This document shows positions 25,273 to 59,293 of a stretch of DNA of 64,000 nt, piece after piece. The stretch covers positions 1-64,000 of the forward strand of contig JAIZWL010000004.1 in the NCBI GenBank assembly GCA_021498125.1, read 5' to 3'. Under the pieces are notes generated by a model. It was not told the origin of the DNA and made no database searches. It was given only the letters and a program-made list of their open reading frames with translations. A program made the position numbers and the translations under genes. Every line of letters starts with the position of its first letter. The stretch's first letter is position 1. This stretch comes from Candidatus Thorarchaeota archaeon (GTDB lineage Archaea; Asgardarchaeota; Thorarchaeia; Thorarchaeales; Thorarchaeaceae).

Positions 25273-26154
25273 TCAGGGATCAAGTCCTGCATCAGCAAGC
25301 AACCACTCATATACACTCTTCCAGATCTTACCATCCTCGCGCATTTTGTTCTCGAAATTATTGATAGAGATGTACTTTTGAAGGGCACTTTGCGCAGCCT
25401 CCGGAAATACGCCATGTTCGACTTCGCTTAGTAAATCAAGAGCAGCAAGGGCCTGTTGTATCTTCAAAGAGATATCACCTTGGATAGGTAGCAAGTGGCT
25501 GGGATCTTCTCTACTCAAGAGTGTCATATCATAGATTTTGAAGATTCGCTCCAGCTCCTCAATAGGGCTGGGATGATCATCGACTCGTACATCAACATAG
25601 CGATCGGTCCCACCTTCATACCCACCGCCCTCACGTACAACAAGGATTGCCGCAGACTGCATACCACGACGGTCACCACCTTTGGCCTGCCCTGCTCTCA
25701 ATGCAGCAAAGAGCTTATCGATCAAGTCGCCCTCTGTGGACTCGTAGGCCTCAGCCATTGCCGTGACGACCTTCTCTGAAGCAAGAATGTTCCCCTGACA
25801 TGTGTAACCGTCACCAGTCACGTGTCCTGCCCAGTCCATGCATTCGTCACCAGTGTAGGCAACGGCACGACCAGCAGCATCAACAATTCCGACCTGCCTA
25901 TGTTCAGCACCGTCATCATCAGAGAGGAGGGACTGAAGTACCTCTTGTGCGGTCATACCTCTCGCCAACATATCGAGTCCACGTGGACCATAGGAGACAT
26001 TGGCCCAAGCTTGTGTGGCAATGGCCCCGACATTGGCTTTTGCCCATGGCACAATGGATCCGACCGCAGGAAATTTGCTCTGGACAATTACTCCAAGATC
26101 ACTGGTCTTCGGATCACGCGCAACAATAGAGAATGTAGATGGTCTCGCAGACAT
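25273..26154 (-). CDS. DUF1028 family protein (Ntn-hydrolase-like fold)
   Basis: A 293-residue protein. The first 215 residues match DUF1028: STFSIVARDPKTSDLGV, then GSIVPWAKANVGAIATQAW and YTCQGNILAS, with AGQAKGGDRRGMQSAAIL. The C-terminal 75 residues (YEWLLADAGLDP at the end) resemble the helical domain often attached to this family. The function is not established; the fold suggests an N-terminal nucleophile hydrolase relative. The start is ATG at 26154, with GGAGA upstream; the frame is open to 26181. It is divergent from the secreted nuclease gene. Confidence 0.8.
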   Translation of the reverse strand: MSARPSTFSIVARDPKTSDLGVIVQSKFPAVGSIVPWAKANVGAIATQAWANVSYGPRGLDMLARGMTAQEVLQSLLSDDDGAEHRQVGIVDAAGRAVAYTGDECMDWAGHVTGDGYTCQGNILASEKVVTAMAEAYESTEGDLIDKLFAALRAGQAKGGDRRGMQSAAILVVREGGGYEGGTDRYVDVRVDDHPSPIEELERIFKIYDMTLLSREDPSHLLPIQGDISLKIQQALAALDLLSEVEHGVFPEAAQSALQKYISINNFENKMREDGKIWKSVYEWLLADAGLDP

Positions 26155-26227
26155 TGTACGGTCTCCTAATCTATTGTCCATTCATCATACTCTAAGCAAT
26201 TTTAATATGCCCCCTGTTCTCTGTCAC

Positions 26228-29200
26228 ATGAGGATGCACGTCTTGAGATGGAGAATGCTCATAGCCGCTCTTATCATCTGTTTTTTAATCGTAGGTGTAG
26301 TTGTGATCTACGTATACGTCATTAATAGACCTCCATTCGATACTACAGCTCCCATAGTCATCATTACCAGCCCATCTGACGGGGACTCACTGGCAGGGAC
26401 TGTCACCATATCCTTTACCGCAACAGATGAAACCTTCATCAATGAAACTGAGATCTACATCGATAATTCCCTTCGGGCCGCCACGACAACGTACATGTGG
26501 AATACAACCGCTGAGAAAAACGGTAATCATTCAATTCTCTGCCGTGCAGGTGATAGTTCCGGTAACTGGGGGCAAGCCGTCATCACGATCGTTGTGAATA
26601 ACAGTCCGCCTTCACCACCACCAGATGAAAATGTGACACAGACAACCTATACAGATGCCTTCAAGGTCATGAGCTATAATATCGAGGAGAGTGGGGCAAA
26701 CGAGAATTGGAAAGAGGTCGTAAAAGAGGAGAACCCGGACATTCTTGTTCTCATCGAAACTGGCACATTCGATGATAACGGAAATGAAACACTTGACGAG
26801 ATAGTATCAGAGTTCAACACGTATTTTTCCAATGAACTCCCGTATGAGGGATACTGCACTCAGGGCATCTCCTACTCGACTGATGGAGAGGCTATATTAA
26901 GCAGATTCCCCGTGATCGAGTTCAAGCAGATTCCCATTGTGAAACTCGATAATGGAAGCAACTACGATGTCACACATGATTTCGTGGACGCTGTTGTGAA
27001 TGTTAGCGGAACAGACATGCATGTGATAGGAGCCCACCTGAAGGCAAGAGATGGAAGTAGCAATGAATGGCGGCGGGAACGCGAGACCGAGGGAATCATC
27101 AATTATATGGATGGTCTAGGAAATGTTCCAATTCTGTACATGGGAGACCTCAATTCGTTTTCGCCCGATGATACAGGGAGCCTTGCGCCCCATGGCGATC
27201 TCGGTTATGGGCCTATGACCATGATGCTCTATCCCAACGATCCCACCTATGGTCAATACGCCTCGGCAGTCCACAATTTCACTGATGTCTTCCGTACGCT
27301 GAATCCAACAGATCCCGGGTACACATATGGCCATCAGGATGCATACTATTTATCACGAATCGACTTTCTTGTAACGAACCAGTTCTTTAGTGGGCGACTG
27401 ATCAACTCCACTGTTGGCGACACACCATCAGCAGATACAGGCTCGGACCATTATTGCGTGGACGTGTTCATCAGAGCCAATCTGACCACACATCAAGATC
27501 ATGAGCCACCAGCAAAGGTCACAGGATTGACCACAGCAGATGTCAGCTTCTCAGAGATCAATCTCTCATGGACCCCAAATAGTGAATCGGACATCTCACA
27601 CTACCGTATATACCGAGATGGAATATTGCTCGCTCAGATATATGATAACACATACAATGACACCGGTCTCAACCAGTCAACTTCATACGTCTATGAGGTC
27701 TCAGCAGTGGATACGAGTCTGAACGAGGGGCCACGCTCGGACCCATTAAATGTCAGCACCACAAGTAAGGGCGATCCGGATCTTGTGGTCATTAACGAGT
27801 TCCTCCCTGACCCGGACACCGTATACTCTGATGAATGGATCGAACTCTACAACCCTCAAGATGTTGATGCCAATATCTCCGGCTATTTTCTCGACGACAT
27901 CGCAATAAATGGCTCAAACCCATACCTCATCCCGAAGGGGACCGTGATCTCAGCACACGGATACCTTGTGTTCTACAAGAGCACAACAGGAATCAACCTC
28001 AACAATGTGAACGATACTGTCAATCTCATCAGACCGGATGGGATCACAATCATTGACACATACGAGTACAACAGTACAATGAACGACATAAGTATCGGAC
28101 GTGAGACAGATGGTGGAGACACGTGGACAACATTTTCGTTTCCGACGCCCGGCGCATCTAACACGAATGAACGTGTTCCGGCTGATGCAGTGGTGATCAA
28201 TGAGTTTTTGCCAAGCCCCAATACGCTCTATACAGAAGAGTGGATCGAACTCTATAATCCGCTCAACGAGTCTGTAGATATCTCACGATACATACTTGAT
28301 GATATCGTGACTGGCGGCTCTGGCCCCTATACGATCCCATCCGGAACCATCATTCCGGCCAATGGCTTTGCTCTCTTCAACTACACAACAACCGGAATCG
28401 CCCTCAATAATGCAGGGGACAACGTGACCCTCTTGCGACCGAACTACAGAGAGATCATTGATTCGTATTCGTACAACTCGTCTACCAGCGATGTGAGCAT
28501 TGGTCGTATCACTGATGGAAATGCGACTTGGACAACATTTGTCTCGCCCACACCAGGAGCATCCAATGTACACTCCAGCTCGGCTGCTGCCGATTCAATA
28601 TGCATCAACGAATTTCTCCCGGACCCCGATACGTTATACTCCGAAGAGTGGATCGAACTCTATAATCCGCTCAATGAGTCTGTTGATCTGTCAGGATACA
28701 TACTTGACGACATCACGGGTGGCGGCTCCAGCCCCTATACGATTCCTTCGGGAACAATCATCCCCGCATTTGGATTTATACTATTTAATCAGAGCACAAC
28801 AGGGATTGCCCTCAATAATGCAGGGGACACCGTGAACTTCTTGAAACCCGATGGATCTACAGTCGTGGATTCACACGCATATAATTCATCAACGGATGAT
28901 GTGAGTATCGGCCGTACAACAGATGGAGGGGCCAATTGGACCACCTTTATCGCCCCAACACCGGGTGCGTCTAATGTAGTGCCAAGCTCTAATGCTGATG
29001 CGGTGGTCATTAACGAGTTCCTACCCGACCCAGACACGGCATACTCGGAAGAGTGGATCGAACTCTACAATCCATTGAACGAGTCCGTTGACATATCAGG
29101 ATACATTCTGGACGACATAACATCCGGAGGCTCGAGTCCATATACGATTCCCCAGGGGACGATCATCAGCGCTTACGGTTTTGCTCTCTTCAACCAGAGC

Positions 29201-29560
29201 ACAACGGGAATTGCTCTCAATAATGCGGGGGACACCGTGAACTTTCTCAGTCCCAATGGCACGGTACTCGATTCATATACATACAACTCCTCATCTAATG
29301 ATGTCAGCTATGGTCGTAGTACTGATGGTAACAGCACATGGAAGACCTTTGCCTCCCCCACACCGGGTGCCAGCAATGGAGCATCACCATTGTTGAGCAA
29401 TGATATGCTACTGAAGAGAGGATCACCCGAGATAGTCGATCTAAGGATTCAAACATCAACAGAGCAGTGTTCACACAAGAGAGGCCCCAATCATCTTGAA
29501 GAGAGGTTGCCCCACCGTGGCTGCGATTATATTCGAGATAGCGGGAATATAATCTGGTAG
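26228..29560 (+). CDS. Surface endonuclease/exonuclease/phosphatase-domain protein with four lamin-tail domains
   Basis: A protein of about 1110 residues. A signal anchor (about 10-33) is followed by an Ig-like domain (38-125) and an endonuclease/exonuclease/phosphatase domain (about 145-418). That domain has an apparently intact active site: FKVMSYNIEE, LVLIETG, IGAHLKA, YMGDLNSF, RIDFLVT and GSDHYCVD. A fibronectin type III domain (about 424-513) and four lamin-tail domains (520-1053) come next, each opening like VVINEFLPDPDT and holding EEWIELYNP. It may cut extracellular DNA or phosphoesters. The last 55 residues are polar and basic and overlap a convergent gene by 90 bases; no C-terminal anchor is seen. 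The ATG at 26228 is preferred (a second is at 26234); a TTTTAATATG TATA-like box lies about 20-30 bases upstream. Confidence 0.85.
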   Translation: MRMHVLRWRMLIAALIICFLIVGVVVIYVYVINRPPFDTTAPIVIITSPSDGDSLAGTVTISFTATDETFINETEIYIDNSLRAATTTYMWNTTAEKNGNHSILCRAGDSSGNWGQAVITIVVNNSPPSPPPDENVTQTTYTDAFKVMSYNIEESGANENWKEVVKEENPDILVLIETGTFDDNGNETLDEIVSEFNTYFSNELPYEGYCTQGISYSTDGEAILSRFPVIEFKQIPIVKLDNGSNYDVTHDFVDAVVNVSGTDMHVIGAHLKARDGSSNEWRRERETEGIINYMDGLGNVPILYMGDLNSFSPDDTGSLAPHGDLGYGPMTMMLYPNDPTYGQYASAVHNFTDVFRTLNPTDPGYTYGHQDAYYLSRIDFLVTNQFFSGRLINSTVGDTPSADTGSDHYCVDVFIRANLTTHQDHEPPAKVTGLTTADVSFSEINLSWTPNSESDISHYRIYRDGILLAQIYDNTYNDTGLNQSTSYVYEVSAVDTSLNEGPRSDPLNVSTTSKGDPDLVVINEFLPDPDTVYSDEWIELYNPQDVDANISGYFLDDIAINGSNPYLIPKGTVISAHGYLVFYKSTTGINLNNVNDTVNLIRPDGITIIDTYEYNSTMNDISIGRETDGGDTWTTFSFPTPGASNTNERVPADAVVINEFLPSPNTLYTEEWIELYNPLNESVDISRYILDDIVTGGSGPYTIPSGTIIPANGFALFNYTTTGIALNNAGDNVTLLRPNYREIIDSYSYNSSTSDVSIGRITDGNATWTTFVSPTPGASNVHSSSAAADSICINEFLPDPDTLYSEEWIELYNPLNESVDLSGYILDDITGGGSSPYTIPSGTIIPAFGFILFNQSTTGIALNNAGDTVNFLKPDGSTVVDSHAYNSSTDDVSIGRTTDGGANWTTFIAPTPGASNVVPSSNADAVVINEFLPDPDTAYSEEWIELYNPLNESVDISGYILDDITSGGSSPYTIPQGTIISAYGFALFNQSTTGIALNNAGDTVNFLSPNGTVLDSYTYNSSSNDVSYGRSTDGNSTWKTFASPTPGASNGASPLLSNDMLLKRGSPEIVDLRIQTSTEQCSHKRGPNHLEERLPHRGCDYIRDSGNIIW
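27785..29385 (+). repeat. Four tandem lamin-tail domain repeats in the coding sequence
   Basis: Repeat units begin near 27785, 28190, 28598 and 29003, a period of 405-408 bases (135-136 codons). They share runs such as GAGTGGATCGAACTCTA and AACGAGTC, and units 2-4 are the most alike, which suggests recent duplication or gene conversion. Confidence 0.8.
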
Positions 29561-46470: not shown

Positions 46471-48879
46471 ATGAAGAAAGTACCATTACTATTTTTAATT
46501 ATGCTCATTGTTAGTACGCCATTTCTTTTGATGGTTGCACAATCAACATCTACCACGGAGGGAACATCTCAGCCCAAATCCTATGCATTCAGTAAAACAC
46601 AACCTGAGAATGGAGGGGTGAACATGATGTTCTTTACCGAAACACCATCTTCGGAGGACGCTCTGTACTATGTGTGCCGACGTGGATCGAATACGGTAGC
46701 CTACTTTGGGAAGTCCGCGATTAAGTACATTTCAGAGAATACTATCTTCACTCTAAAATTTCCGGGAAGTAATTTGGTCATTCCACAGGGACAACAACCA
46801 ACGAAATCAATTACAAATTATTTGTATGGTGATGATCCATTAACTTGGAAGACGGATGTTCCGAATTATGAAATACTTCAATATCCTGAAATATATCCGG
46901 GGATTGACCTTGTCTATAAGATCCAGAACGGCAATCTGAAGTACGAGTTTGTAGTGCACCCTCATGCCGATCCGACGGTTATCCGGATAGAGTACGTGAA
47001 TGCTGATAACATTGACATCATTGATAACAGTATCATAGTTACTCAGAAAGGACACCAGATCACGGACACTGAATTATATGTATTTCAAAAAGCAGGAGCG
47101 GTTCCGATAGAATGCATGTTTACTCAGATCGAAGACAAGACCGTTGCGTTCCAATTGAGTGCATATGATAACTCAAAGCAGTTGGTCATAGATCCGGTTT
47201 TACTGGTATATTCGTCATTTCTAGGTGGTTCTGATTTCGAAGCGGCTTCGGAAATTAAGGTCGAAAACGGATATATCTATGTGGCGGGAACCACCCAATC
47301 TGCTAACTTTCCCACAGCCAATGCACTCAACTCAACTTATGGTGGAAACTTCGACGGCTACGTAACAAAACTCTCTCCTGATGGGCAATCATTAGTATAT
47401 AGTACATTCATTGGTGGTGCCAATTATGACTACATACAGGGGATTGCAGTGGAGCAAGGAGAGGTCTACATTACAGGATATTCAAACTCCGTTGATTTTC
47501 CCACAGTCAATGGATATAATTCAACCTTTAGTGGAGATTATGATTGCTTTGTAGCCAAGTTATCTCTTGACGGACAGTCCCTTATCTATAGTACCTTCAT
47601 CGGAGACACGGACTTAGATGTTGCAAATGACATTATTGTGCAGAATGGCTATGCATATATTACTGGACGAACCAAGTCGGCAGGATTCCCTACTATTAAC
47701 GGATTTAATACAACCTATGGTGGAGCATGGGACTGTTTCGTAACCAAGTTGTCTCGTGATGGAGGATCGTTATTGTACAGCACCTTTGTTGGCGGTTCTG
47801 ATGATGACTATGGTCAGGCAATTGCCATCTTGGAGGGAGAAGTCTATGTTGTGGGAATTACCAAATCCCCGGAATTCCCAACAATAAATGCTTCAGACTC
47901 GACCCACAATGGCGCATGGGACTGCTTTGTACTCAAATTGTCCGGTGATGGACAGACATTGATGTTTAGTACCTTCATCGGAGGGAATAACGATGACCTT
48001 GGAGTGGATATTGCAACAGCAGAGGGAGAAGTTCTCATTACAGGCCACACAAATTCCTCGGACTTTCCAACAGTCAATGCATATTCATCCAACTACAGAG
48101 GCGGAGAGTACGACTGCTTTGTGACTAAGCTCACAGACGATGGGCAAGCAATGATATATAGCACCTTCATCGGCGGGTCGGACATAGATGAGGCAATGGG
48201 ACTTGCTATAGCAAATGGCGAAGCATACATCACTGGAATTACTGGTTCAGCAGACTTTCCAACAGTCAATGCATATGATTCAACATTTAGTGGTCATTCG
48301 AACTGCTTCGTGACCAAGATTGCCAGTGATGGAAAAACATTAGAATATTCTACCTTTCTTGGGGATTCCGATCAGGTCCGGGGAGAGTCCATCTTCGTAG
48401 AGAATGGTTTCACATATATCTTTGGCACAACTATGGAAATTGGTTTCCCACTGGTAAACCCCTATGATTCAACCACAGATAAGGGAACAGACAGCTTTGT
48501 AGCAATAATAAGTGAAGAAGAAGACAGTGATTTCGACGGACTGACTAATTGGGACGAATATATCATCTACGGCACAAATCCCAATTGTATTGACACTGAT
48601 AATGATAATCTCAACGACGCTTTCGAGATTCAGATAGGAACCAGTCCACTTGCAAATGATACAGATGGGGACACGTTCCTCGACTGGTACGAGATCCAAT
48701 ACGGCTCAAATCCGCTTGATCCTACAGATTATCCGGGAGCAACAGCAACCAATACTACCACATCTGTGACTGATTCGCAAAATCTGAATCTACTTTGGCT
48801 TCTGGTCGGAATTGCCATTATTACAAGTGTCGGAGCAGTCATGGTTTCAATTATCAGTTGGAGAAAGTCCAATCGATGA
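46471..48879 (+). CDS. SBBP beta-propeller-repeat surface protein with type 3 calcium repeats and anchor
   Basis: An 802-residue secreted protein. A signal peptide (about 5-24) is followed by a DUF7948-like N-terminal domain. About eight SBBP-type repeats of 55-60 residues come next, each with STFIGG, then VYITGYSNS and DFPTVN, and FVTKLS near the end of a blade. Around 685-765, DSDFDGLTNWDEY, DTDNDNLNDAFE and NDTDGDTFLDWYE are thrombospondin type 3-like calcium-binding repeats. A C-terminal helix (LLWLLVGIAIITSVGAVMVS) ends in RKSNR. It is a probable adhesive or cell-wall protein. Confidence 0.85.
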   Translation: MKKVPLLFLIMLIVSTPFLLMVAQSTSTTEGTSQPKSYAFSKTQPENGGVNMMFFTETPSSEDALYYVCRRGSNTVAYFGKSAIKYISENTIFTLKFPGSNLVIPQGQQPTKSITNYLYGDDPLTWKTDVPNYEILQYPEIYPGIDLVYKIQNGNLKYEFVVHPHADPTVIRIEYVNADNIDIIDNSIIVTQKGHQITDTELYVFQKAGAVPIECMFTQIEDKTVAFQLSAYDNSKQLVIDPVLLVYSSFLGGSDFEAASEIKVENGYIYVAGTTQSANFPTANALNSTYGGNFDGYVTKLSPDGQSLVYSTFIGGANYDYIQGIAVEQGEVYITGYSNSVDFPTVNGYNSTFSGDYDCFVAKLSLDGQSLIYSTFIGDTDLDVANDIIVQNGYAYITGRTKSAGFPTINGFNTTYGGAWDCFVTKLSRDGGSLLYSTFVGGSDDDYGQAIAILEGEVYVVGITKSPEFPTINASDSTHNGAWDCFVLKLSGDGQTLMFSTFIGGNNDDLGVDIATAEGEVLITGHTNSSDFPTVNAYSSNYRGGEYDCFVTKLTDDGQAMIYSTFIGGSDIDEAMGLAIANGEAYITGITGSADFPTVNAYDSTFSGHSNCFVTKIASDGKTLEYSTFLGDSDQVRGESIFVENGFTYIFGTTMEIGFPLVNPYDSTTDKGTDSFVAIISEEEDSDFDGLTNWDEYIIYGTNPNCIDTDNDNLNDAFEIQIGTSPLANDTDGDTFLDWYEIQYGSNPLDPTDYPGATATNTTTSVTDSQNLNLLWLLVGIAIITSVGAVMVSIISWRKSNR

Positions 48880-48936: not shown

Positions 48937-49209
48937 CTAAATTTTATTTCTCTATAAAAAATGGCCTTCTATCATTTATTTTTAAAATATAGGTCGCAAA
49001 CAATTTAATTATCCTATTTTCTAATTTGGCTCAAGCAGTGAAAGAGATCATTCTCAACTGTCCGCGACCCCCGATCACAATAAACACTTGAAAACAAGTG
49101 TCAGAAATCAGTGCATCTACCGCATCCATGAAATCAGAAGAATAAAACGAAGATTCATAACTACAAAGGCCACGAGCCAATCAGTCATGTTTGGAGAACG
49201 ACAGCATTG
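48937..49209. other. Intergenic region without recognised gene
   Basis: About 270 AT-rich bases between the SBBP terminator and the leucine-rich repeat gene. No RNA gene or repeat was recognised. Confidence 0.35.
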
Positions 49210-50277
49210 ATGGATGTCATCACTATCAGTTACAGTACAAGCGACGGCCTGACAAAAGAGGTCGAACTGGATATAGACGCGGAGGAGCTGGATCTCTCGA
49301 GGCAGAAGATTACAAGCATCGATCTTACACCGTTAAAGGATGCAAAGGAATTACGCGCGCTCAATCTAGCATTTAATCGGATGGTTTCGATTGACCTGAC
49401 GGGGCTCGATGGCTGTTCAGCCCTGGAGGAACTGATACTGACAAAGAACAATATCCAAGAGATCGATCTGCGTCCCCTTGGGTCATGCCCTGCACTTCGA
49501 GAGTTGAACGTAGGAGGCAATGAGATATCCTTCTTGGACCTCTCACCACTATCGAATTGCACGCATCTTGAACGACTGAGGCTCTTTGGAAATAATCTTG
49601 ACTCGATAGATTTGACTCCATTATCTCGATGCACCGAACTGAAGATGCTCGAATTGGAACATAACAACATGCCCGAGATCGATCTTCGACCATTATCCAA
49701 GTGCACTAATCTGACTCAGATTAATTTAATGTATAATAATTTCACGGCTATTGATCTGACACCTCTCAAGAACTGCAAGCGACTCAAGTTCCTCTACCTG
49801 CATCATAACGTCCTCAAGAGCATTGACCTCACACCTCTGGCAAATTGTGAGGACCTGACGATCATCAGACTTGGTGGTAACGAACTCACAAGTATTGATC
49901 TCGAACCTTTAGCGAAATGTAAGAACCTGCGCAGAGTAGGTCTCGCAATGAACGCACTTGAGAGCATCGATCTGCGACCCCTAGCCGAATGTCAGGAACT
50001 TAGAAGTCTTGATGTTGCAGGAAATCATCTCACGTCGATCAATCTCGAGCCACTCGCCGATTGCACTGCTCTTGAAGAACTCTACATCCATAGTAATCAT
50101 CCAACGGAGAATAACTTCAGTAGCGTCAATCTTACACCACTATTATCATGCCCGGATCTTGAGGATCTTGGTGTTCCCGATGACGCGGACCTCATCATCG
50201 ATAAATCGTATCGAGGTTCAGACTATCCACCTGCCATCGAAGAACTCGTTGAGGAAAAGAGGATAAAGTGGGAATAG
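49210..50277 (+). CDS. Leucine-rich repeat protein
   Basis: A 355-residue cytoplasmic protein built almost entirely of about 11 leucine-rich repeats of exactly 24 residues, each shaped IDLTPLxxCxxLxxLxLxxN (about residues 35-295). A cysteine sits at position 9 of nearly every repeat. A short cap and a charged C-terminal tail (EELVEEKRIKWE) follow. No catalytic domain or signal is attached. The likely role is protein binding. The start is the ATG at 49210 rather than the TTG just before. Confidence 0.85.
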   Translation: MDVITISYSTSDGLTKEVELDIDAEELDLSRQKITSIDLTPLKDAKELRALNLAFNRMVSIDLTGLDGCSALEELILTKNNIQEIDLRPLGSCPALRELNVGGNEISFLDLSPLSNCTHLERLRLFGNNLDSIDLTPLSRCTELKMLELEHNNMPEIDLRPLSKCTNLTQINLMYNNFTAIDLTPLKNCKRLKFLYLHHNVLKSIDLTPLANCEDLTIIRLGGNELTSIDLEPLAKCKNLRRVGLAMNALESIDLRPLAECQELRSLDVAGNHLTSINLEPLADCTALEELYIHSNHPTENNFSSVNLTPLLSCPDLEDLGVPDDADLIIDKSYRGSDYPPAIEELVEEKRIKWE

Positions 50278-50340
50278 ACCAGGCGCACTCACGACAGTAC
50301 TTTTTAGGAAAGAGAACATTATGGGACTGGTTGATGAGTC

Positions 50341-50991
50341 ATGGTTGTAGAAATTGATGATACTACCAAGGAACAAGTAATGGAGCTCTTTGAGGTCCTT
50401 GAACATGATGTGACTCTACATGTCTTTGTTGACGATCACGACTGTCTATATTGTGGCGACACGCAAGCATTAGCAGAAAATGTGGCGGACCTCTCTGACA
50501 AGGTGCACGTGAAGGTCTATCCGGGTGATCTCAATGATGAACGGGCAAAAGAAATGGGCGTGAAATACCATCCCGCCATTGTGGTTCACGGTGAGCGCCC
50601 CTATAATGTACGCTTCTATGGAATTCCTGCCGGTCACGAGTTCGGAGCCTTGATTGGAAGTATCACAGATGCCTCACGAGGGATCGCACCGTTTTCTGAC
50701 GACGTGATAGCTGACATAAAATCAATTGACAAACCGATCCATATCCAAGTCTTTACCACACCGACCTGCCCGTATTGCCCAAATATGGTCAGACTCGCCC
50801 ATCAAGCAGCGATTCTCAATCCGTTTATCGAGGCGGATATGATCGAGGCACTAGAGTTCAAGGAGCTATCCGCCAAATACGCAGTGTTCGCAGTGCCAAA
50901 GACTATCTTCAATGAGGATGTCTCGATAGAGGGTCTCACACCACCAGAAATTCTGGTTGAGAAACTCTTCGAAGCTGTAGACAAGATATAG
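50341..50991 (+). CDS. Protein disulfide oxidoreductase (PDO, two thioredoxin folds)
   Basis: A 216-residue protein with two thioredoxin-like units. The first has CLYC (35-38), the second CPYC (143-146) with TTPTCPYCPNM and a cis-proline in AVPKTI. This is the archaeal PDO (glutaredoxin-like) layout, which makes or isomerises disulfides in the cytoplasm. The gene for the NADH:disulfide oxidoreductase-type flavoprotein at 23.2 kb may supply electrons, but that is only a guess. Confidence 0.88.
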   Translation: MVVEIDDTTKEQVMELFEVLEHDVTLHVFVDDHDCLYCGDTQALAENVADLSDKVHVKVYPGDLNDERAKEMGVKYHPAIVVHGERPYNVRFYGIPAGHEFGALIGSITDASRGIAPFSDDVIADIKSIDKPIHIQVFTTPTCPYCPNMVRLAHQAAILNPFIEADMIEALEFKELSAKYAVFAVPKTIFNEDVSIEGLTPPEILVEKLFEAVDKI

Positions 50992-51100
50992 ACATTTGAC
51001 CATGTGATTCTGACTGTGCCAGGATCCTCAATTTTTATTATACCAGTTCCAATTACTTAAATCAAAAGTAAGGGATAAGAAAAGCGAGAGGTTGAGAATC

Positions 51101-51577
51101 ATGAACACAGAAGAAACATTGGAGTTTATAGATCGCCAGATTGAATTAGAAGAACGAATCATCCAGATAGTCGAAGAGAACGTGGGAAAGCTTGGAAACG
51201 CCTTCCTCAAAGACCTGCTCATAGGAATCTCTCAGGACTCTCATAAACACAAGGCGCTCCTCCAATCTCTTCGAAAAGCTGTCGAGGGGCCGACTCCATT
51301 TATCAGCACACAGGAACGCGATAAGATAGCAAAAGGGATTGACAAACATATCGAACTGGAAAGGCAGGCTGTTGAAACCTACACCAAGCTGATGAATGAG
51401 AGCGAGAATGATCAGGTCCGAACAATTGCAGCCATCATTAGAGAGGACGAACTACGACACCATGCAATGCTCAAGGAACTCCACAAGACGATTGTGGAAC
51501 CTGAAACCCTGACTGAGGACATGATCTGGGATATCATGTGGAAAGATTCACCGTGGCATGGTAGCCCGGGAGGCTAA
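51101..51577 (+). CDS. Ferritin-like / rubrerythrin-like helical protein
   Basis: A 158-residue four-helix protein. Candidate diiron ligands are in EFIDRQIELEERII, SQDSHKHKALL, KHIELERQAVETY and EDELRHHAML. The repeated E-x-x-H-like pattern and length match ferritin-like domains. It may bind iron and act in oxidative stress. The start is ATG at 51101, with GAGAGGTTGAG upstream; TTG at 51092 is also possible. Confidence 0.75.
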   Translation: MNTEETLEFIDRQIELEERIIQIVEENVGKLGNAFLKDLLIGISQDSHKHKALLQSLRKAVEGPTPFISTQERDKIAKGIDKHIELERQAVETYTKLMNESENDQVRTIAAIIREDELRHHAMLKELHKTIVEPETLTEDMIWDIMWKDSPWHGSPGG

Positions 51578-51608: not shown

Positions 51609-52151
51609 TCATTGTGTGAATTTCTCGATGAGTCTCATGAACTTAAAGTCGAGAGATTCGATGCCAATTCCAGTCTTGGCAGAGATTAATTGAGTATCCA
51701 TGCCGTAAGGCTCTGCAAGGCGTGCTATCTCGGACTCGATATGGTCGAAGGGAGGCTCCAGGAGATCAATCTTGTTCCCGACAAGAATGAAACGTTCACC
51801 GTCGCCTTCCTTCAGTCGTAAGTTGCTGTTTTCTTCAACCATGGGAATCCAATAACCAAAGAGGGCATCAAGTGTGGACATCCTACTCACATCAAAGAAT
51901 AGCAGGCCGACCTTGGCTCCACGAATCATACCCTTCAGGGTTTCGATAAATCGCATCTGACCGCCAAAGTCCCAGATTGATAGAGTGACAGCACGACCGT
52001 CAGATAATGTGACTTTCTTTGTGTCAAAACTGGCGCCGACAGTGGTCCTCAAGCTTGCCGGATCAGGAAACGATCCAGTCGTCCATCTGCTAGTGAATGA
52101 AGTCTTACCGCATTCAGTATCTCCAAGAACGACCGCCTTTAGAATCGCCAT
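51609..52151 (-). CDS. Small GTPase (Arf/Ras-like), last gene of a five-gene operon
   Basis: A 180-residue GTPase. G1 is GDTECGKTS (10-18), the switch I Thr is 36 or 37, G3 is DFGGQ (61-65), G4 is NKID (126-129) and G5 is SAK (157-159). There is no lipidation cysteine and no N-terminal amphipathic helix. It lies 48 bases downstream of two tightly linked membrane protein genes on the same strand, a longin-like gene and a zinc-ribbon gene. Longin and roadblock proteins are often regulators of small GTPases, so the operon may encode the GTPase with its regulator and membrane partners (inference). Confidence 0.9.
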   Translation of the reverse strand: MAILKAVVLGDTECGKTSFTSRWTTGSFPDPASLRTTVGASFDTKKVTLSDGRAVTLSIWDFGGQMRFIETLKGMIRGAKVGLLFFDVSRMSTLDALFGYWIPMVEENSNLRLKEGDGERFILVGNKIDLLEPPFDHIESEIARLAEPYGMDTQLISAKTGIGIESLDFKFMRLIEKFTQ

Positions 52152-52199
52152 CTGTGTTTCACCAAGTTAAGTTCTCTCTATCAAATGTTTCCTTTTATT

Positions 52200-53546
52200 T
52201 TACGTTATTCGTGCCGGACGCGAACGTTTGAAACGTCGTGGACTACTCAACATCATTGCAACAGTTGCAACAATCAGAACAGTCAGTAATATGAGGAGAG
52301 GCACAAAAAAGCTGATGATAATGATAACGCCTAATAGAACTGATGCAATATTAAACGATATAAAATTGTATGCAGCCCTTTTTGCCCCGAGTCGATATAA
52401 TCGCCATGAAGTACGCCCATAAGCAAAGATACCAATGGAAACTTCAATAAAAATAAAAATGCCTATAACTTCGAAAGTCCAACGATCACCACGGATAAAT
52501 GGGTGCCCTAAAACTGCAAGCATACTGATGTTTGCAAGTAACAGCCTCCGAATATGGCGATGACCTTTCTGCACAATTGTTGCAATCCCAGACATGATAA
52601 AAGATGAGGCGGCAATTGTTCCAAGGATCACTTCAAGCCAAGAGAGAAATTCTAATGTCACGTGCGGGCGGAATGCAAAAGCTCTGTCAACACAAGTAAA
52701 AACAATTGCAATTGAAATGGAGACCAGTGCAATAGTTATGTATGTTGGAACAGTAGCATGCGTAGATGACGCCTGTTCCGCAAAGAAATCAATGGAAAAG
52801 ATGGTCGCTAATATCGGAATATTGGCGACGAATATGTAAAGTGCAATATCATAATCTCCCGCAATGATAGTCCCAACAAACAGACCCGATGATAACACAA
52901 GTGCATAGATCCCGACAAACAGTGTAATAATCGTGCGGGGTGGCCTAAGTAGAGATGCCAACAAGGAGGCTGCCATAACAATGGGAACAAATACAAAAAG
53001 AAAACTTTGAACGTCACTGTAAAGTGTCTTTGAAGTTGCAAGGTACCAGAAGATAAGGAATGTTGACTCTAAAGTCAAAAGACCACCTGCAAAAGGTCCG
53101 GGGGATCTACTGAAAATCCATATGCTTGCAATTATCACGAGAATCATATTAAGTGCAAGAAGAGTTATGAAAATAATAGAGGGAACACCTCTCTGATTCA
53201 CAAATAATATTATTAGCTGAGAAACAATTCGGATCAGTGTGTATGCATAGATAACATAATGAATGCGCTTATTGTCAGTAGCTATGTGCACGATCGAATT
53301 GATTAGGGCCATCATAAATAAGAGAACCCAGGTTCGTTGAACCATAAGCGAATCAGTATATGATGCAACAAGAATAATCAGGCCCATGAAAAATGAGGCA
53401 ATGCCAAAGAATACTAGTGCCCTAAACGTGGACGACGACACACGGTCACGAACCAAATAGATCCGCCGGGAGTACACAGCAAGTGCGCCCAGCATTAGGA
53501 AGAACGCAACGTGTGCACTGACAATAAGAGCTAAATTGAAATCCAC
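52200..53546 (-). CDS. Polytopic membrane protein (about 14 helices), paralogue A
   Basis: A 448-residue protein with about 14 hydrophobic segments and no recognised transporter motif. Its N-terminus (DFNLALIVSAHVAFFLMLGA, then FRALVFFGIASFF) parallels the gene just upstream (DFFLALQISLVVSS, then KRALILFGLSAVV), so the two are paralogues. The C-terminus is short and basic (SPRRFKRSRPARIT). The GTG start abuts the stop of the upstream gene, with GGAGG just before. It may be a membrane receptor or docking platform for the neighbouring GTPase (inference). Confidence 0.75.
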   Translation of the reverse strand: MDFNLALIVSAHVAFFLMLGALAVYSRRIYLVRDRVSSSTFRALVFFGIASFFMGLIILVASYTDSLMVQRTWVLLFMMALINSIVHIATDNKRIHYVIYAYTLIRIVSQLIILFVNQRGVPSIIFITLLALNMILVIIASIWIFSRSPGPFAGGLLTLESTFLIFWYLATSKTLYSDVQSFLFVFVPIVMAASLLASLLRPPRTIITLFVGIYALVLSSGLFVGTIIAGDYDIALYIFVANIPILATIFSIDFFAEQASSTHATVPTYITIALVSISIAIVFTCVDRAFAFRPHVTLEFLSWLEVILGTIAASSFIMSGIATIVQKGHRHIRRLLLANISMLAVLGHPFIRGDRWTFEVIGIFIFIEVSIGIFAYGRTSWRLYRLGAKRAAYNFISFNIASVLLGVIIIISFFVPLLILLTVLIVATVAMMLSSPRRFKRSRPARIT

Positions 53547-54959
53547 TTAGACCGCCTCCTGATCAAGATCAGTACCCCTCAGAATTCGAATGAAACGGCG
53601 CACAGGGTTTCCAGGTGCGCTGAACATGAGCATCACGATGGCAACAATTTGCAGCACGGGATCCATAATAAACGGCATTCTATCAGAGAACATAGAGACC
53701 AGTCCTGCGGATATTGCTCCAACAATAAAGATCACAAATCGTACTGCGACTCTGCCATGACCCATTTTGACTAGACGCCATGCAAGTCGTCCATATGCCA
53801 CAGCCGCAATTAGAATGAGAATTAGCATGGGGAGATAAAGAATAGAAGAGTCGTAGCGACCAGAATTGATCCATGGATTCATTAGTAGGACCAGCGGCAC
53901 TCCAATCACGATGAGTAAGTCTGTAATAGGTTCAGTAACACGCTCACTATAAGTAGTTGACAAAGCCGCCAACAAAAATACTGAAACAGCAACTACTCCA
54001 AGAATCCAATCCATGAAGATGATCCATTGGTCCCAATTACCATGAATTTTCATGAGCAAGATACTATCCCAAGGCAGACCAACGGCAGGTGAAGTGCCAT
54101 AGGAATACGCCCAGTTTGTCCAATGGGTCTCCACTAACAACCCGATTGAAAACAGTGTGATTGCAATATAGAGTGGGGTTCGCGTATGAGTGTGCACAGC
54201 CTCTGCAACAAAATACTCGAATGGCAATACAAGTGCCAATGAGACCATGTATGCAAAAAAGACGAAGATATAGATCCCTGCATCACCAGCAACAATGGCG
54301 GCATATATGACCGGAATAGCAAGTGTGGTCCCAAAGAAGATGAGAAATAGGGAGGGAATCATTCGCCATGGCTTTAGCATAGACGCCAAGATAGCAGCAA
54401 TAAATGTCACACCCAACACAGCACCTGGAAAGTAGTGAGGCTCAATTAATATGAAACCATACATCACGGTGAAGTACAGCGGAACCGTGATCAGCGCAAT
54501 TCCAAGTGAAGAATACGTGAATGGTGATGGTGAGACCATATGAAGTCTAATTGTCAAGAGGAAAAGTACTCCGACAATGATGACCATTGAGAAATACTTG
54601 AATGGGCCTGCGGGATCAAGGGCGATCAGGAAGAGAGAACTGAAATAAAATGTAATAAAAGTGGCTATTGCTTTGATCCGGGTAGTACGCGATTCAAAGA
54701 TGATCTCAAAGAGAGAAAGATCTAGCAGCAATGGCCCAAACGAAAACAGAACCCGACTCAACATGAGATTTACTACAGAGAGAGAAATCGAGACCTGATA
54801 TACTACTGCGGACAAACCAAATAAGATCAAAGCCCTCTTTGTGGCCGAACCAAGTCGGTGAGATGTCCGTCTATATGATTGCACAAAGATTGCGAGTGAG
54901 ATTGCCATGATAACACTCGAAACAACCAACGATATCTGAAGAGCAAGAAAGAAGTCCAT
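53547..54959 (-). CDS. Polytopic membrane protein (about 14 helices), paralogue B
   Basis: A 470-residue paralogue of the following gene, with the same pattern of about 14 hydrophobic segments. It has a small cytoplasmic C-terminus (RRFIRILRGTDLDQEAV). The start is taken as the ATG at 54959, with AGGTGGTGA overlapping the upstream stop codon; TTG at 54968 is the alternative. No family was recognised with confidence. Some helices recall the seven-helix sensor part of archaeal histidine kinases, but there is no kinase or other output domain here. Confidence 0.75.
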   Translation of the reverse strand: MDFFLALQISLVVSSVIMAISLAIFVQSYRRTSHRLGSATKRALILFGLSAVVYQVSISLSVVNLMLSRVLFSFGPLLLDLSLFEIIFESRTTRIKAIATFITFYFSSLFLIALDPAGPFKYFSMVIIVGVLFLLTIRLHMVSPSPFTYSSLGIALITVPLYFTVMYGFILIEPHYFPGAVLGVTFIAAILASMLKPWRMIPSLFLIFFGTTLAIPVIYAAIVAGDAGIYIFVFFAYMVSLALVLPFEYFVAEAVHTHTRTPLYIAITLFSIGLLVETHWTNWAYSYGTSPAVGLPWDSILLMKIHGNWDQWIIFMDWILGVVAVSVFLLAALSTTYSERVTEPITDLLIVIGVPLVLLMNPWINSGRYDSSILYLPMLILILIAAVAYGRLAWRLVKMGHGRVAVRFVIFIVGAISAGLVSMFSDRMPFIMDPVLQIVAIVMLMFSAPGNPVRRFIRILRGTDLDQEAV

Positions 54960-54975
54960 TGAAACCAATCACCAC

Positions 54976-55350
54976 CTATCGCCATAGATCGCCGATCTCA
55001 CGGCCTCGTCGCTTCAATGCCTTTTCTACTTCTGAAGATAACACCTCGTCGGAAGCAGTTGGTTCCTTGAGAATGGTCTTCAGTGCATCACCCACTTCTC
55101 GTTCGCCATCTCCCTCACAAATGAAAAGAATCTCATCGGTAGTCAGATAACCAATCACACCTTTATCGGATTTCATGAACATCGGCTGCCCTTGTGTACT
55201 TGATCCTCCAGTTCGTGATAATGCTGCTGAAACTAATTGCAGGATACCAGTCAACAGTGCAATTCGCTCTTCTCGTGCCTCGTCTCTAGGATAAATCAAT
55301 TTAGAGTCCATACTCTCAAGTTCCACGCGTGCCACTAATCGAACTACCAT
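54976..55350 (-). CDS. Longin-like small protein
   Basis: A 124-residue protein whose predicted order of elements is strand-strand-helix-strand-strand-strand-helix-helix: VVRLVARVELESM, a helix around RIALLTGILQLVSAAL, then PMFMKSDKGVIGYLTT, EILFICEG and EVGDALKTIL. That order is of a longin domain rather than a roadblock domain, which starts with a helix. Longin proteins regulate or bind small GTPases and trafficking machinery. The match is structural inference. The start lies 2 bases after the zinc-ribbon stop. Confidence 0.55.
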   Translation of the reverse strand: MVVRLVARVELESMDSKLIYPRDEAREERIALLTGILQLVSAALSRTGGSSTQGQPMFMKSDKGVIGYLTTDEILFICEGDGEREVGDALKTILKEPTASDEVLSSEVEKALKRRGREIGDLWR

Positions 55351-55352
55351 TC

Positions 55353-55631
55353 TTATTCGCCTCCAAAAGCTTTCGAGACCCAGTCAAAATCGGATTTCGG
55401 CTTTGATTTTTCCTCACCAGAATAAAGAGGAATGACAACGTCCCTGATGCCCAAGCCATCGCCTGAATTATAGAGAGTCACAAGGAGGTCATGACCATTC
55501 TCGCATTTTACAATGAGGGTCGGAGAACGCCCCTGCTCGATGATCCGATTTCTTATCTCTGCGGCTTCCTCATCGGTCATTTCTATTTCGGCGGCGCCCT
55601 TGCACTTCGGGCAAGAAAAATGCAGCTTCAT
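55353..55631 (-). CDS. Small zinc-ribbon protein, first gene of the GTPase operon
   Basis: A 92-residue protein. Cys7 and Cys10 (CPKC) and Cys43 and His47 (KCENGHDLL) could bind one zinc. Between them is a helix (TDEEAAEIRNRIIEQG). The C-terminal 30 residues are charged. The pattern CxxC, strand, C/H, then a beta hairpin LLVTLYN...GIRDVVIPL is shared with the first half of the 58135-58638 protein. The start is ATG at 55631, with GAGG upstream. Confidence 0.65.
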   Translation of the reverse strand: MKLHFSCPKCKGAAEIEMTDEEAAEIRNRIIEQGRSPTLIVKCENGHDLLVTLYNSGDGLGIRDVVIPLYSGEEKSKPKSDFDWVSKAFGGE

Positions 55632-55927
55632 CACAAAATCCTCGAACCACCTTGCTAATTTTGCCTTTTTAACATAGCTTGGACGAACTTGTCATGGGAT
55701 AAAAATTTATTAGCACGCTTTTATCAAAGGCGATCTTTGAGAGGCACGTGGTGATTTCAAAAAAGAACTATACAGTACATTCTAATGTGACTGCCATATC
55801 GAAAGATAGATTCGAAACAGATAAAGAACGATTAACTACACACTTCATTAGCACATATGAGATAGAAGATGTCTGCAATATTGAATAAAATATAAAAAAG
55901 ATGGCGGCGTTCTAGAAGGGATACCCT

Positions 55928-57639: not shown

Positions 57640-58122
57640 TCAATTGAGCTTGAAGTCGATCTTGCAGATGTCCCCGGTCTTTAGGTCAATATGACTCATC
57701 TGCAAAGCCTTGCCAGTGACTGTAAGAATAGCACCACGTACTACACCACCAACAGGACAGGCAGTATGACCTTCCAAGTCATACCCCCCAACCCTGCGCG
57801 GACAGATCAGGCAATCCTGCACAATGACATGGGCCACATCATCTTCGAAATAGACCTCAAGATCTTCAGCAATCTGGACCACATTCATAAGCTTCTCGAG
57901 GATTTTCTCGACAGGGTCTCGAGGAGAAACGACCTTCTGCCTGAGCATCTCTTTACCCATCTCTTGACCGATCCACGACCCAAGAATATCCATTGCGCCC
58001 TGTGGATCCATGTCAGGGTTAAGCAATATGTCCCGAGCCTTGACAAGGCCCGCACCCATACCTATCACTACACGATTAAGGTAACTACCAGTCGGATCTT
58101 TCTTTTTTCTGAACCTGAACAA
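57640..58122 (-). CDS. V4R-like ligand-binding domain protein
   Basis: A 160-residue protein. The C-terminal half has DCLICPRRVGGYD (Cys104, Cys107), TACPVGGVVRGAI (Cys122) and TGDICKIDFKLN (Cys153). This cysteine spacing and the final strand pattern resemble the V4R (4-vinyl reductase) domain, which binds small hydrophobic molecules or metal. The N-terminal half is helical (MGAGLVKARDILLN). The start is TTG at 58122 with AGGGGTG upstream, 12 bases after the previous stop. It is in one unit with the zinc-ribbon gene. Confidence 0.6.
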   Translation of the reverse strand: MFRFRKKKDPTGSYLNRVVIGMGAGLVKARDILLNPDMDPQGAMDILGSWIGQEMGKEMLRQKVVSPRDPVEKILEKLMNVVQIAEDLEVYFEDDVAHVIVQDCLICPRRVGGYDLEGHTACPVGGVVRGAILTVTGKALQMSHIDLKTGDICKIDFKLN

Positions 58123-58134
58123 ATCATCACACCC

Positions 58135-58638
58135 CTAAGCTCGCCTTACTAGTCCTTCTCGAACATACCGTTCACAGATGTCTTCAATCTGCTGAAGGTT
58201 AATTCGTTCACCTAGTGCCCGTTCTACTCCCACGACCTGCCGCCTAATCTGGCTGATGCAAATAGTCCCTGACTCACAGACTGCCTTGAGAACAGCCTTG
58301 TCAAGGATGAACGAGGACTTCTCTCGTTCTTTGACCTCATCATAAGAATAGAGCGCTTGATAACACGGTTCGCCAAATTGTTCTGAGAGAGATGCCGCCA
58401 CAGTATCCTTGGATACCAATGTGACCTCACGTGGTACATCAAATTTGAAGCTGTCAGGACACTCAATTCCCCGAACGCGAAGTTGACGATCAATGTAAAC
58501 GACAATTGCATGCAACGGATCACCGTGTACAAACATGATCCGAAGGATTCCATCAGGACTGTTCCCGAACTCGTCCTCTGATACATCAATCGAGACTGGC
58601 TTATTGCATTGCTCACAATGTACCGTTACCTGTGCCAT
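58135..58638 (-). CDS. Zinc-ribbon protein with C-terminal winged-helix-like domain
   Basis: A 167-residue protein. The N-terminal zinc-ribbon part has CEQC (Cys8, Cys11) and VHGDPLHAIVVYID (His38, His43), then RVRGIECPDSF. The C-terminal part (about 90-167) is helical with CESGTICISQIRRQV and LQQIEDICERYVREGLV, which resembles a winged helix. It may link a zinc ribbon to protein or DNA binding. A GGAG site precedes the ATG. It is 148 bases downstream of the GTPase gene and may have its own promoter there. Confidence 0.55.
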   Translation of the reverse strand: MAQVTVHCEQCNKPVSIDVSEDEFGNSPDGILRIMFVHGDPLHAIVVYIDRQLRVRGIECPDSFKFDVPREVTLVSKDTVAASLSEQFGEPCYQALYSYDEVKEREKSSFILDKAVLKAVCESGTICISQIRRQVVGVERALGERINLQQIEDICERYVREGLVRRA

Positions 58639-58786
58639 ATTTTGTAACTCCTATCATGACCCTCATTCATTGGATGTCGCTGACTCCTATCAAGAGCCGA
58701 AAATTCTTGAGAGAGAACTGCTAAGAATACAAGTCCAAACCATATTAACGTTATTAAGACAACATTGTCAGTAAAATTAATAAAAT

Positions 58787-59293
58787 TCATGATGCGACCA
58801 TCTCCAGAATTCGTTGCCTAAGCTCGGGAAAGTTGAGACCTGTCTTGGAACTCACCAAAATGAAATCAAGGCCATACTCTTCGGCGGACATGCGTATGTT
58901 TTCGATGTCGAGATGATTTGCTGCATCAATCTTATTTCCGACAAGGACTTTTTTCTCTGGGGGGAGGAAAGTGATAAGATCCAGCCATATTCCAATCCGA
59001 AGGATGGATGAGACCACAGTGCAATCAAAGACCACAAGTGCGGCCTTAGCACCAGTCAGTAACGGGCCTTGAAAAAACCTGAATTGCTTCTGGCCCCCAA
59101 AATCAAAACAGGCGACCTTGATCATAGTCGAGTCATCCGGAGCAATCGACCACGTGTCAATATCAAATCCCACGGTCATTGTTTTCTCAACATATGTATT
59201 CGTAATGAGCCGCGCAATCAGGGTGCTCTTACCGACACCACCATTGCCAACAACTGCAAGCTTGTATAGTTTGTGCGCGGTCAATAACAACAT
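58787..59293 (-). CDS. Small GTPase (Arf/Ras-like), copy 3
   Basis: A 168-residue GTPase. G1 is GNGGVGKST (16-24), G3 is DFGGQ (64-68), G4 is NKID (120-123) and G5 is SSK (148-150). It has Thr38/Thr40 in switch I. There is no lipidation site. A TATA-like TTATACTAAAA lies 50-60 bases upstream. The gene is in line with the zinc-ribbon and V4R-like genes, parallel to the operon at 51.6-55.6 kb. Confidence 0.9.
   Translation of the reverse strand: MLLLTAHKLYKLAVVGNGGVGKSTLIARLITNTYVEKTMTVGFDIDTWSIAPDDSTMIKVACFDFGGQKQFRFFQGPLLTGAKAALVVFDCTVVSSILRIGIWLDLITFLPPEKKVLVGNKIDAANHLDIENIRMSAEEYGLDFILVSSKTGLNFPELRQRILEMVAS

Follow-up and report, generated by a model that had tools for sequence, protein, structure and literature searches.

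A conserved Asgard gene cassette joins a Rab-like small GTPase to a longin-fold protein, a zinc ribbon and a 15-helix membrane protein

Small GTPases are regulated by longin and roadblock proteins acting as subunits of guanine nucleotide exchange factors (GEFs) or GTPase-activating proteins (GAPs) (PMC12383261, PMC13015309, PMC10936438). The conservon, often present in several copies per genome, is an operon of a membrane sensor, a roadblock GAP, a third small GEF and a Ras-like GTPase (PMC13343842, PMC13015309), and the conserved archaeal operon ArvABC (OapABC) controls extracellular vesicle formation in Haloferax (PMC10927574). For MK-D1, a 2024 structural study found that GTPase genes generally do not lie in operons with roadblock, longin or TRAPPC3 genes and that operons are of little help (PMC10933270). 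Here we describe an operon from a Candidatus Thorarchaeota archaeon, located in the window analysed (bases 1-64000 of contig 4 of a 3.1-Mb genome). Five minus-strand open reading frames (ORFs) fill positions 51609-55634 and encode, in order from the promoter side, a zinc-ribbon protein (ZR), a longin-fold protein (LG), two polytopic membrane proteins (TM-A and TM-B; TM for the family) and a Rab-like small GTPase. We confirm the five-gene operon and find it to be a single instance of a conserved Asgard cassette, the core of which comprises four genes, ZR, LG, TM and the GTPase, with the second TM paralogue being optional. A preliminary description, made from the sequence of the window, had placed five minus-strand genes here, with ribosome binding sites at or inside the preceding stop for three of them; the ORF coordinates agree, including intergenic gaps of 2, 7 (TTG start) or 16 (ATG start), 0 and 48 nucleotides, and Shine-Dalgarno-like motifs, overlapping or abutting the preceding stop, are found for LG, TM-A and TM-B (Table 1). 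The ATG at 54959 (470 residues) is preferred over the TTG as the start of TM-A because nearly every homologue begins MDF.

Conservation was surveyed in 228 Asgard genomes, one per species, and in 47 genomes of the same class. LG is present as 24 copies in 21 of the 228 genomes, all within the family of the source genome and spanning 11 genera, and each of the 24 copies has ZR immediately upstream and TM immediately downstream, an order that is far beyond chance. The conservation of gene order that had been proposed as a check was thereby borne out for the core, the second TM occurring only in some genera. ZR and TM are found in the same 21 genomes as LG, with a few additional weak matches for ZR and one weak partial match for TM; TM homologues in 22 of the 47 same-class genomes include a chance match to a carboxypeptidase-like protein in G016, which was dropped. 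A GTPase orthologue (E <1e-30) occurs in 19 same-class genomes, each of which also carries LG and TM, and in the two LG genomes without one (G002 and G020) the contigs break off within TM. Among same-class genomes of at least 90% completeness and at most 5% contamination, 10 of 13 carry the cassette. Module by module, the trees of LG, TM and the GTPase are congruent, and we therefore regard the modules as inherited as units. Specifically, tandem modules occur in G009 and G015; module 1 of G009 groups with G026 in the LG and TM trees, and module 2 groups with G024/G025 (and G010 where present) in the LG, TM and GTPase trees, in both cases against genus labels. Modules stand side by side at loci L061 and L057, with different subtypes in L061, and genomes of genus g8 differ in which of the subtypes they carry at the shared locus, a pattern that suggests either differential loss from an old tandem pair or an exchange of cassettes.

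The genes flanking the cassette vary between genomes, and cassette-free genomes (e.g. G005, G016, G018, G021 and G030) possess a clean empty site, in which IorA, usually the next gene, comes directly after the ferritin-like gene, with IorB and other genes of the neighbourhood beyond it; the identities of IorAB, TrxR and Trx in this neighbourhood are those we take them to have from their sequences. Beside the cassette lies a conserved block (window 49207-51577, plus strand) of genes for a leucine-rich-repeat protein, a protein disulfide oxidoreductase (PDO) and the ferritin-like protein, which most relatives retain whether or not they carry the cassette. The redox genes on the flanks (PDO, ferritin-like, TrxR and IorAB) were considered as cassette partners and rejected as background synteny, since they stay together without it.

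Single-sequence and first-profile searches had seemed to confine the cassette to one family, a view dropped once weak ZR matches exposed a second type (type II) with the same order, the LG and TM of which had been missed by the first profiles. The type-II TM profile is found in 23 genomes, and a broader profile in 28, about five of these being weak or partial; carriers include the source genome (Table 1) and members of at least three other Asgard families (G050 in f5, G126 and G128 in f9, and G219 in f29). The approximately 26 type-II loci read GTP-ZR-LG-TM, ZR-LG-TM-GTP or shortened versions of these, an additional LG being present in some, and the order is kept at unrelated loci and in these other families. 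In a profile comparison, the TM of type I aligned with that of type II over 436 columns (E 4.7e-11), indicating homology, with a composition control of the N-half against the C-half of TM giving E 0.067 over 43 columns. Most ZR2 members are recovered with the ZR1 profile, at 1e-5 to 1e-8, and the charge pattern of the type-II TM is compatible with an N-out/C-in topology. The equivalence of LG1 and LG2 rests on position and fold type, because their sequences are not detectably related; both end with an invariant Trp, and 6 of 24 LG2 members give a weak match, short of the cut-off (E 0.0015), to Pfam Fuz_longin_1, which describes the first longin of FUZ/MON1/HPS1. What can be read from the sequences is a fixed ZR-LG-TM order, a dedicated GTPase, joint gain or loss, matching trees and two diverged types. 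At two loci of Asgard family f11 (L298 134-1317 and L299 7565-8775), a half-length membrane protein of 262-270 residues matches the C-terminal half of TM2 and is preceded, with overlap, by a protein of 133-134 residues that looks roadblock/longin-like by eye; these loci are possibly a half-size version of the module.

AlphaFold (AF2) models, with input alignments of 24 and 30 rows, provide an opportunity to compare LG and TM with known folds. The LG model (predicted local distance difference test, pLDDT, 86.9) has the order strand-strand-helix-strand-strand-strand-helix-helix and no N-terminal helix, and as modelled it satisfies the longin order of elements, E-E-H-E-E-E-H-H (PMC10933270). Its best 50 fold matches in the PDB are, by description, of roadblock, longin, sigma-adaptin, zeta-COP, SNARE longin, GATOR1, Ragulator, TRAPP, BLOC-3 and Fuzzy-Inturned type. 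A longin or roadblock fold of this 124-residue protein was, besides gene order, the point on which the preliminary description had beforehand let its reading stand or fall, and the prediction held, with the longin order at pLDDT 87 and fold matches of the right type, though each of them weak. LG copies are 42-81% identical across the 24 sequences and share an invariant C-terminal L-W, with no significant match to Pfam Robl_LC7 (2 of 24 members, best E 0.077); searches of PDB sequences with the LG, LG2 and ZR profiles returned nothing informative.

The zinc ribbon that had been recognised in the first gene proved to be of C-C-C-H type, C7-x2-C10 and C43-x3-H47 being invariant in the homologue alignment; after them come a linker, which varies, and, near the C-terminus, a conserved D-W-x4-F-G motif (invariant D83-W84 and F89-G90). 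Matches of ZR to Pfam are weak only, the best being Zn_ribbon_Brz. In the GTPase, all G motifs are intact (GDTECGKT, T37, DFGGQ, NKID and SAK) and the G1-G5 motifs form invariant alignment columns, with DxGGQ and NKxD in 20/20 type-I GTPases; together with the Pfam Ras match (E 1e-23), they bear out the small GTPase named as the fifth gene. Its best PDB profile matches are Rab28, Ypt7 and Thor-Rab (7ezb among the best), and in a tree of 59 GTPases, including 16 others from the source genome, the cassette GTPases are monophyletic (support 100/95). The protein has no C-terminal prenylation cysteine; the window copy ends IEKFTQ, and a Cys within the last six residues occurs in 1 of 20 type-I GTPases. 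Because this cysteine is usually absent, membrane access of the GTPase would need a partner, for which TM would be the obvious candidate.

The AF2 model of TM-A (pLDDT 90.8) contains 15 membrane helices plus short ones, and positive charge alternates as expected for an N-out/C-in topology, so the count of 14 given previously has to be replaced by 15. Neither TM-A nor TM-B has a Pfam, NCBIfam or PDB sequence match or a HATPase domain, and TM constitutes a new 15-helix family. The best 50 PDB fold matches of TM are mostly G-protein-coupled receptors (GPCRs), the remainder being mainly rhodopsins; because GPCRs dominate the PDB, these matches, which are all weak, are read only as 'helical bundle', and a GPCR relationship is not claimed. 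Derivation of TM from two seven-helix units by internal duplication was also rejected, the half-against-half comparison (E 0.067 over 43 columns) giving no sequence support, and for a relation to the seven-helix domain of archaeal histidine kinases there was no PF16927 protein among 20 relatives to compare. Conservation is higher on the cytoplasmic side than outside (P 9e-4) or in the membrane core (P 1e-8), defining a conserved cytoplasmic face (T40, P144/F147, KPWR 196-199, E/Q253, P262, Y264, G400/R407 and P449), and a second conserved cluster consists of His/Asp residues facing out (D2, H279, D310, D317 and D426). TM-B is ~25% identical to TM-A, differs from it at conserved residues (D347 to R and R407 to N) and derives from a single duplication (clade support 100/99) in genera g1, g2, g10, g11 and g12 only. 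Cassettes with a single TM are complete without it; the paralogy of the two membrane proteins thus stood, whereas the pair as part of the core gave way to a lineage-specific duplication.

We consider that the cassette is probably a membrane-receptor-coupled small-GTPase switch. TM would sit in the cell membrane, sense something via its outward His/Asp cluster and present its conserved cytoplasmic face, where LG would dock and act on the GTPase, most likely as an exchange factor or co-factor in the manner of longin RabGEFs and less likely as a GAP. ZR may act as a tether or co-regulator, holding LG or the GTPase by means of the conserved, W-containing peptide at its C-terminus. The GTPase, having no lipid anchor, would be recruited to and released from the membrane by the TM/LG/ZR complex and would signal to an effector; in genomes with both TM-A and TM-B, the receptor may be a heteromer. 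The mechanism described for a tri-longin RabGEF, catalysis via a basic switch-I residue of the substrate GTPase (PMC12383261), provides a point of comparison. A basic residue two positions before the switch-I Thr occurs in 20/20 type-I and 21/23 type-II GTPases versus 4/16 other GTPases of the source genome, counts that are not phylogenetically independent insofar as the sequences are related; the alignment is compatible with a longin-GEF substrate role and is suggestive only.

Several points count against such a switch. The basic switch-I residue also occurs in other Rabs, the fold matches of LG are individually weak (Foldseek; best E 0.003, TM-score at most 0.58), and the TM fold has no confident PDB match (TM-score <0.5, E >0.07). 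In addition, profile comparison detects no homology between LG1 and LG2, and many Thorarchaeal genomes do not carry type I, which is therefore not essential. The membrane-linked GTPase module envisaged in the preliminary description is well supported as a dedicated evolutionary unit; the roles of LG and TM we infer, as we do the LG-GTPase interaction, its localisation, exchange activity and all other function. It is also conceivable, although we think it unlikely, that the cassette represents a primordial system of receptor, GEF and GTPase, with a longin of one domain switching on a Rab-like GTPase at the site of a polytopic receptor, and a living relative of the state that gave rise to the eukaryotic longin RabGEFs (Mon1-Ccz1, BLOC-3, Fuzzy-Inturned and TRAPP). 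If true, it would be an archaeal counterpart in design to receptor-coupled G-protein signalling.

TM could instead be a transporter or lipid flippase gated by a complex of GTPase, LG and ZR, with transport rather than signalling as the output. The 7+1+7 layout of its 15 helices, the conserved charged residues in or at the edge of the membrane (D317, D347, H279 and R407) and the optional TM-A/TM-B pair would suit this role, but TM matches no transporter family or structure, conservation of its surface peaks on the cytoplasmic loops and not in the core, and most TM-B copies have other residues in place of both D347 and R407, making a transporter improbable. Doubtful to the same degree is a vesicle-budding or trafficking module of ArvABC type, in which the GTPase would deform the membrane, ZR and LG would be negative and positive regulators and TM would mark the budding site or cargo. 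The Haloferax operon likewise combines a small GTPase (ArvA) with a small alpha/beta protein (ArvB) and a zinc ribbon (ArvC) (PMC10927574), and the cassette GTPase is Rab-like. However, ArvB is a DUF2073 (SepF-like) protein and ArvC a DUF2072 protein, and Pfam scans gave no match of LG to DUF2073 or of ZR to DUF2072; moreover, ArvABC has no polytopic membrane protein, and none of our data connect the cassette with coats, ESCRT or vesicles.

Alternatively, the patchy presence of the cassette, its tandem copies and the switching of subtypes at a single locus could reflect a selfish or accessory island of a mobile or defence-like kind that is retained at one locus and has only a loose functional relation among its genes. 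This we hold to be very unlikely: type II preserves the gene order even at loci unrelated to one another and outside the family of the source genome, the LG and GTPase sequences are highly conserved, and no integrase or transposase was noticed at the cassette edges, although no systematic search was made. A defence island in particular was rejected, as PADLOC gave no convincing match (the best being CorA-like, E 0.003).

At least four Ras-like GTPase loci of the source genome have a ZR-type protein beside them (Table 1). One is a second GTPase operon of three minus-strand genes beside the cassette (window 57640-59293), in which V4R identity of the 160-residue protein at 57640-58122 could not be shown; a sister operon on contig 4 at ~165 kb (L316) encodes a GTPase, a ZR/winged-helix protein and a V4R/TRAPPC3-like protein (V4R E 7e-7, just below the V4R cut-off). 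TRAPP has two core folds, longin and V4R (PMC10933270). ZR may be a general adaptor of Asgard small GTPases, a lead rather than a conclusion, which may be combined with a longin and a membrane protein at some loci and with a protein of V4R type at others. In family f2, proteins of 280-291 residues carry an N-terminal ZR-like domain (L164 6485-7360, L165 6461-11242 and L170 1738-2583), with several in tandem in L165. Elsewhere in the window, both on the plus strand, are a large secreted-looking protein (26000-29560), in which a nuclease-like domain is followed by ~4 repeats of '(V/I)NEFLPDPDT.Y.(D/E)EWIELYNP' resembling lamin-tail-domain repeats, and an 802-residue protein (46471-48879) that combines numerous propeller-like repeats ('YSTFIGG') with an acidic stretch resembling thrombospondin type 3 and a membrane helix at its C-terminus.

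Table 1. Cassette genes, start signals and related loci; positions refer to the window unless another contig is named
Feature	Position	Strand	Basis or remark
ZR, 93-residue zinc-ribbon protein	55353..55634	-	ORF; homologue directly upstream of every LG copy
LG, 124-residue longin-fold protein	54976..55350	-	ORF; AF2 model
TM-A, 470-residue polytopic protein, 15 helices, N-out/C-in	53547..54959	-	alternative TTG start at 54968
TM-B, 448-residue paralogue of TM-A	52200..53546	-	alignment, tree
Rab-like small GTPase, 180 residues	51609..52151	-	Pfam Ras E 1e-23
Shine-Dalgarno GGAGG for LG, inside end of ZR gene	55360..55364	-	sequence
Shine-Dalgarno AGGTGGTGA for TM-A, overlaps LG stop	54969..54977	-	sequence
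Shine-Dalgarno AGGAGG for TM-B, inside end of TM-A	53555..53560	-	sequence
Ferritin-like gene, flank outside cassette, marks one edge of insertion site	51092..51577	+	synteny with relatives
Ras-like GTPase of second operon	58787-59293	-	
ZR protein with extra C-terminal domain	58135-58638	-	
160-residue protein, no known family	57640-58122	-	
Type-II cassette ZR2-LG2-TM2-GTPase of source genome	contig 8, 29158-31755 (L233 7159-9756)		
GTPase loci with ZR-type protein (source genome)	type-I and type-II cassettes; window operon 57640-59293; contig 4 at ~165 kb		

Asgard genomes encode dozens of small GTPases and of longin and roadblock proteins, and to our knowledge nobody can say which GTPase belongs with which of these proteins. 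The cassette takes the guesswork out of assigning likely partners to a small GTPase: beside the cognate GTPase it identifies a longin, a zinc-ribbon protein and a membrane protein dedicated to the set, and it does so in two versions, each conserved separately, and membrane-directed GTPase control before eukaryotes thereby becomes testable with four small genes. A description of the ZR-LG-TM-GTPase gene set was not found in the open-access literature searched, in keeping with the earlier remark that no described system was known to have it. Unlike the arrangement reported for MK-D1, the cassette GTPase does share an operon with a longin gene, and with a membrane protein as well. It belongs to the same GTPase superfamily as Asgard Thor-Rab, described alongside roadblock and TRAPPC3-like proteins (PMC10933270), and differs from eukaryotic Rabs in having no prenylation cysteines at its C-terminus.

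By analogy, RabGEF activity on the cognate GTPase is the role that we prefer for LG. The longin RabGEFs resemble the cassette in pairing a longin-fold protein with a Rab-like GTPase, in the weak LG2 profile match and in the basic switch-I residue; the cassette differs in its single-domain longin with no second longin in the core, its polytopic protein and the lack of significant sequence homology. In MglA-MglB, a prokaryotic small GTPase likewise has an adjacent regulator of the same fold superfamily, but MglB is a roadblock protein and there is no dedicated polytopic partner or ZR. The conservon (CvnA-D, and also the Mfp conservon) shares with the cassette a compact operon of a membrane part, a regulator, a third small protein and a GTPase, CvnD being a Ras-like GTPase as in the cassette, where the GTPase is adjacent to TM. 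The other parts differ: CvnA has a histidine-kinase-like HATPase domain, in contrast to the 15-helix TM; CvnB is a Roadblock/LC7 protein, whereas LG has the longin order within the same fold superfamily; and CvnC is a DUF742 protein, its counterpart here being a C-C-C-H zinc ribbon. The hosts are actinobacterial in one case and Asgard archaea, with a Rab-like GTPase, in the other. Overall, the comparison suggests that the cassette works like a conservon, built from unrelated membrane and zinc-ribbon parts and with a longin in place of the roadblock.

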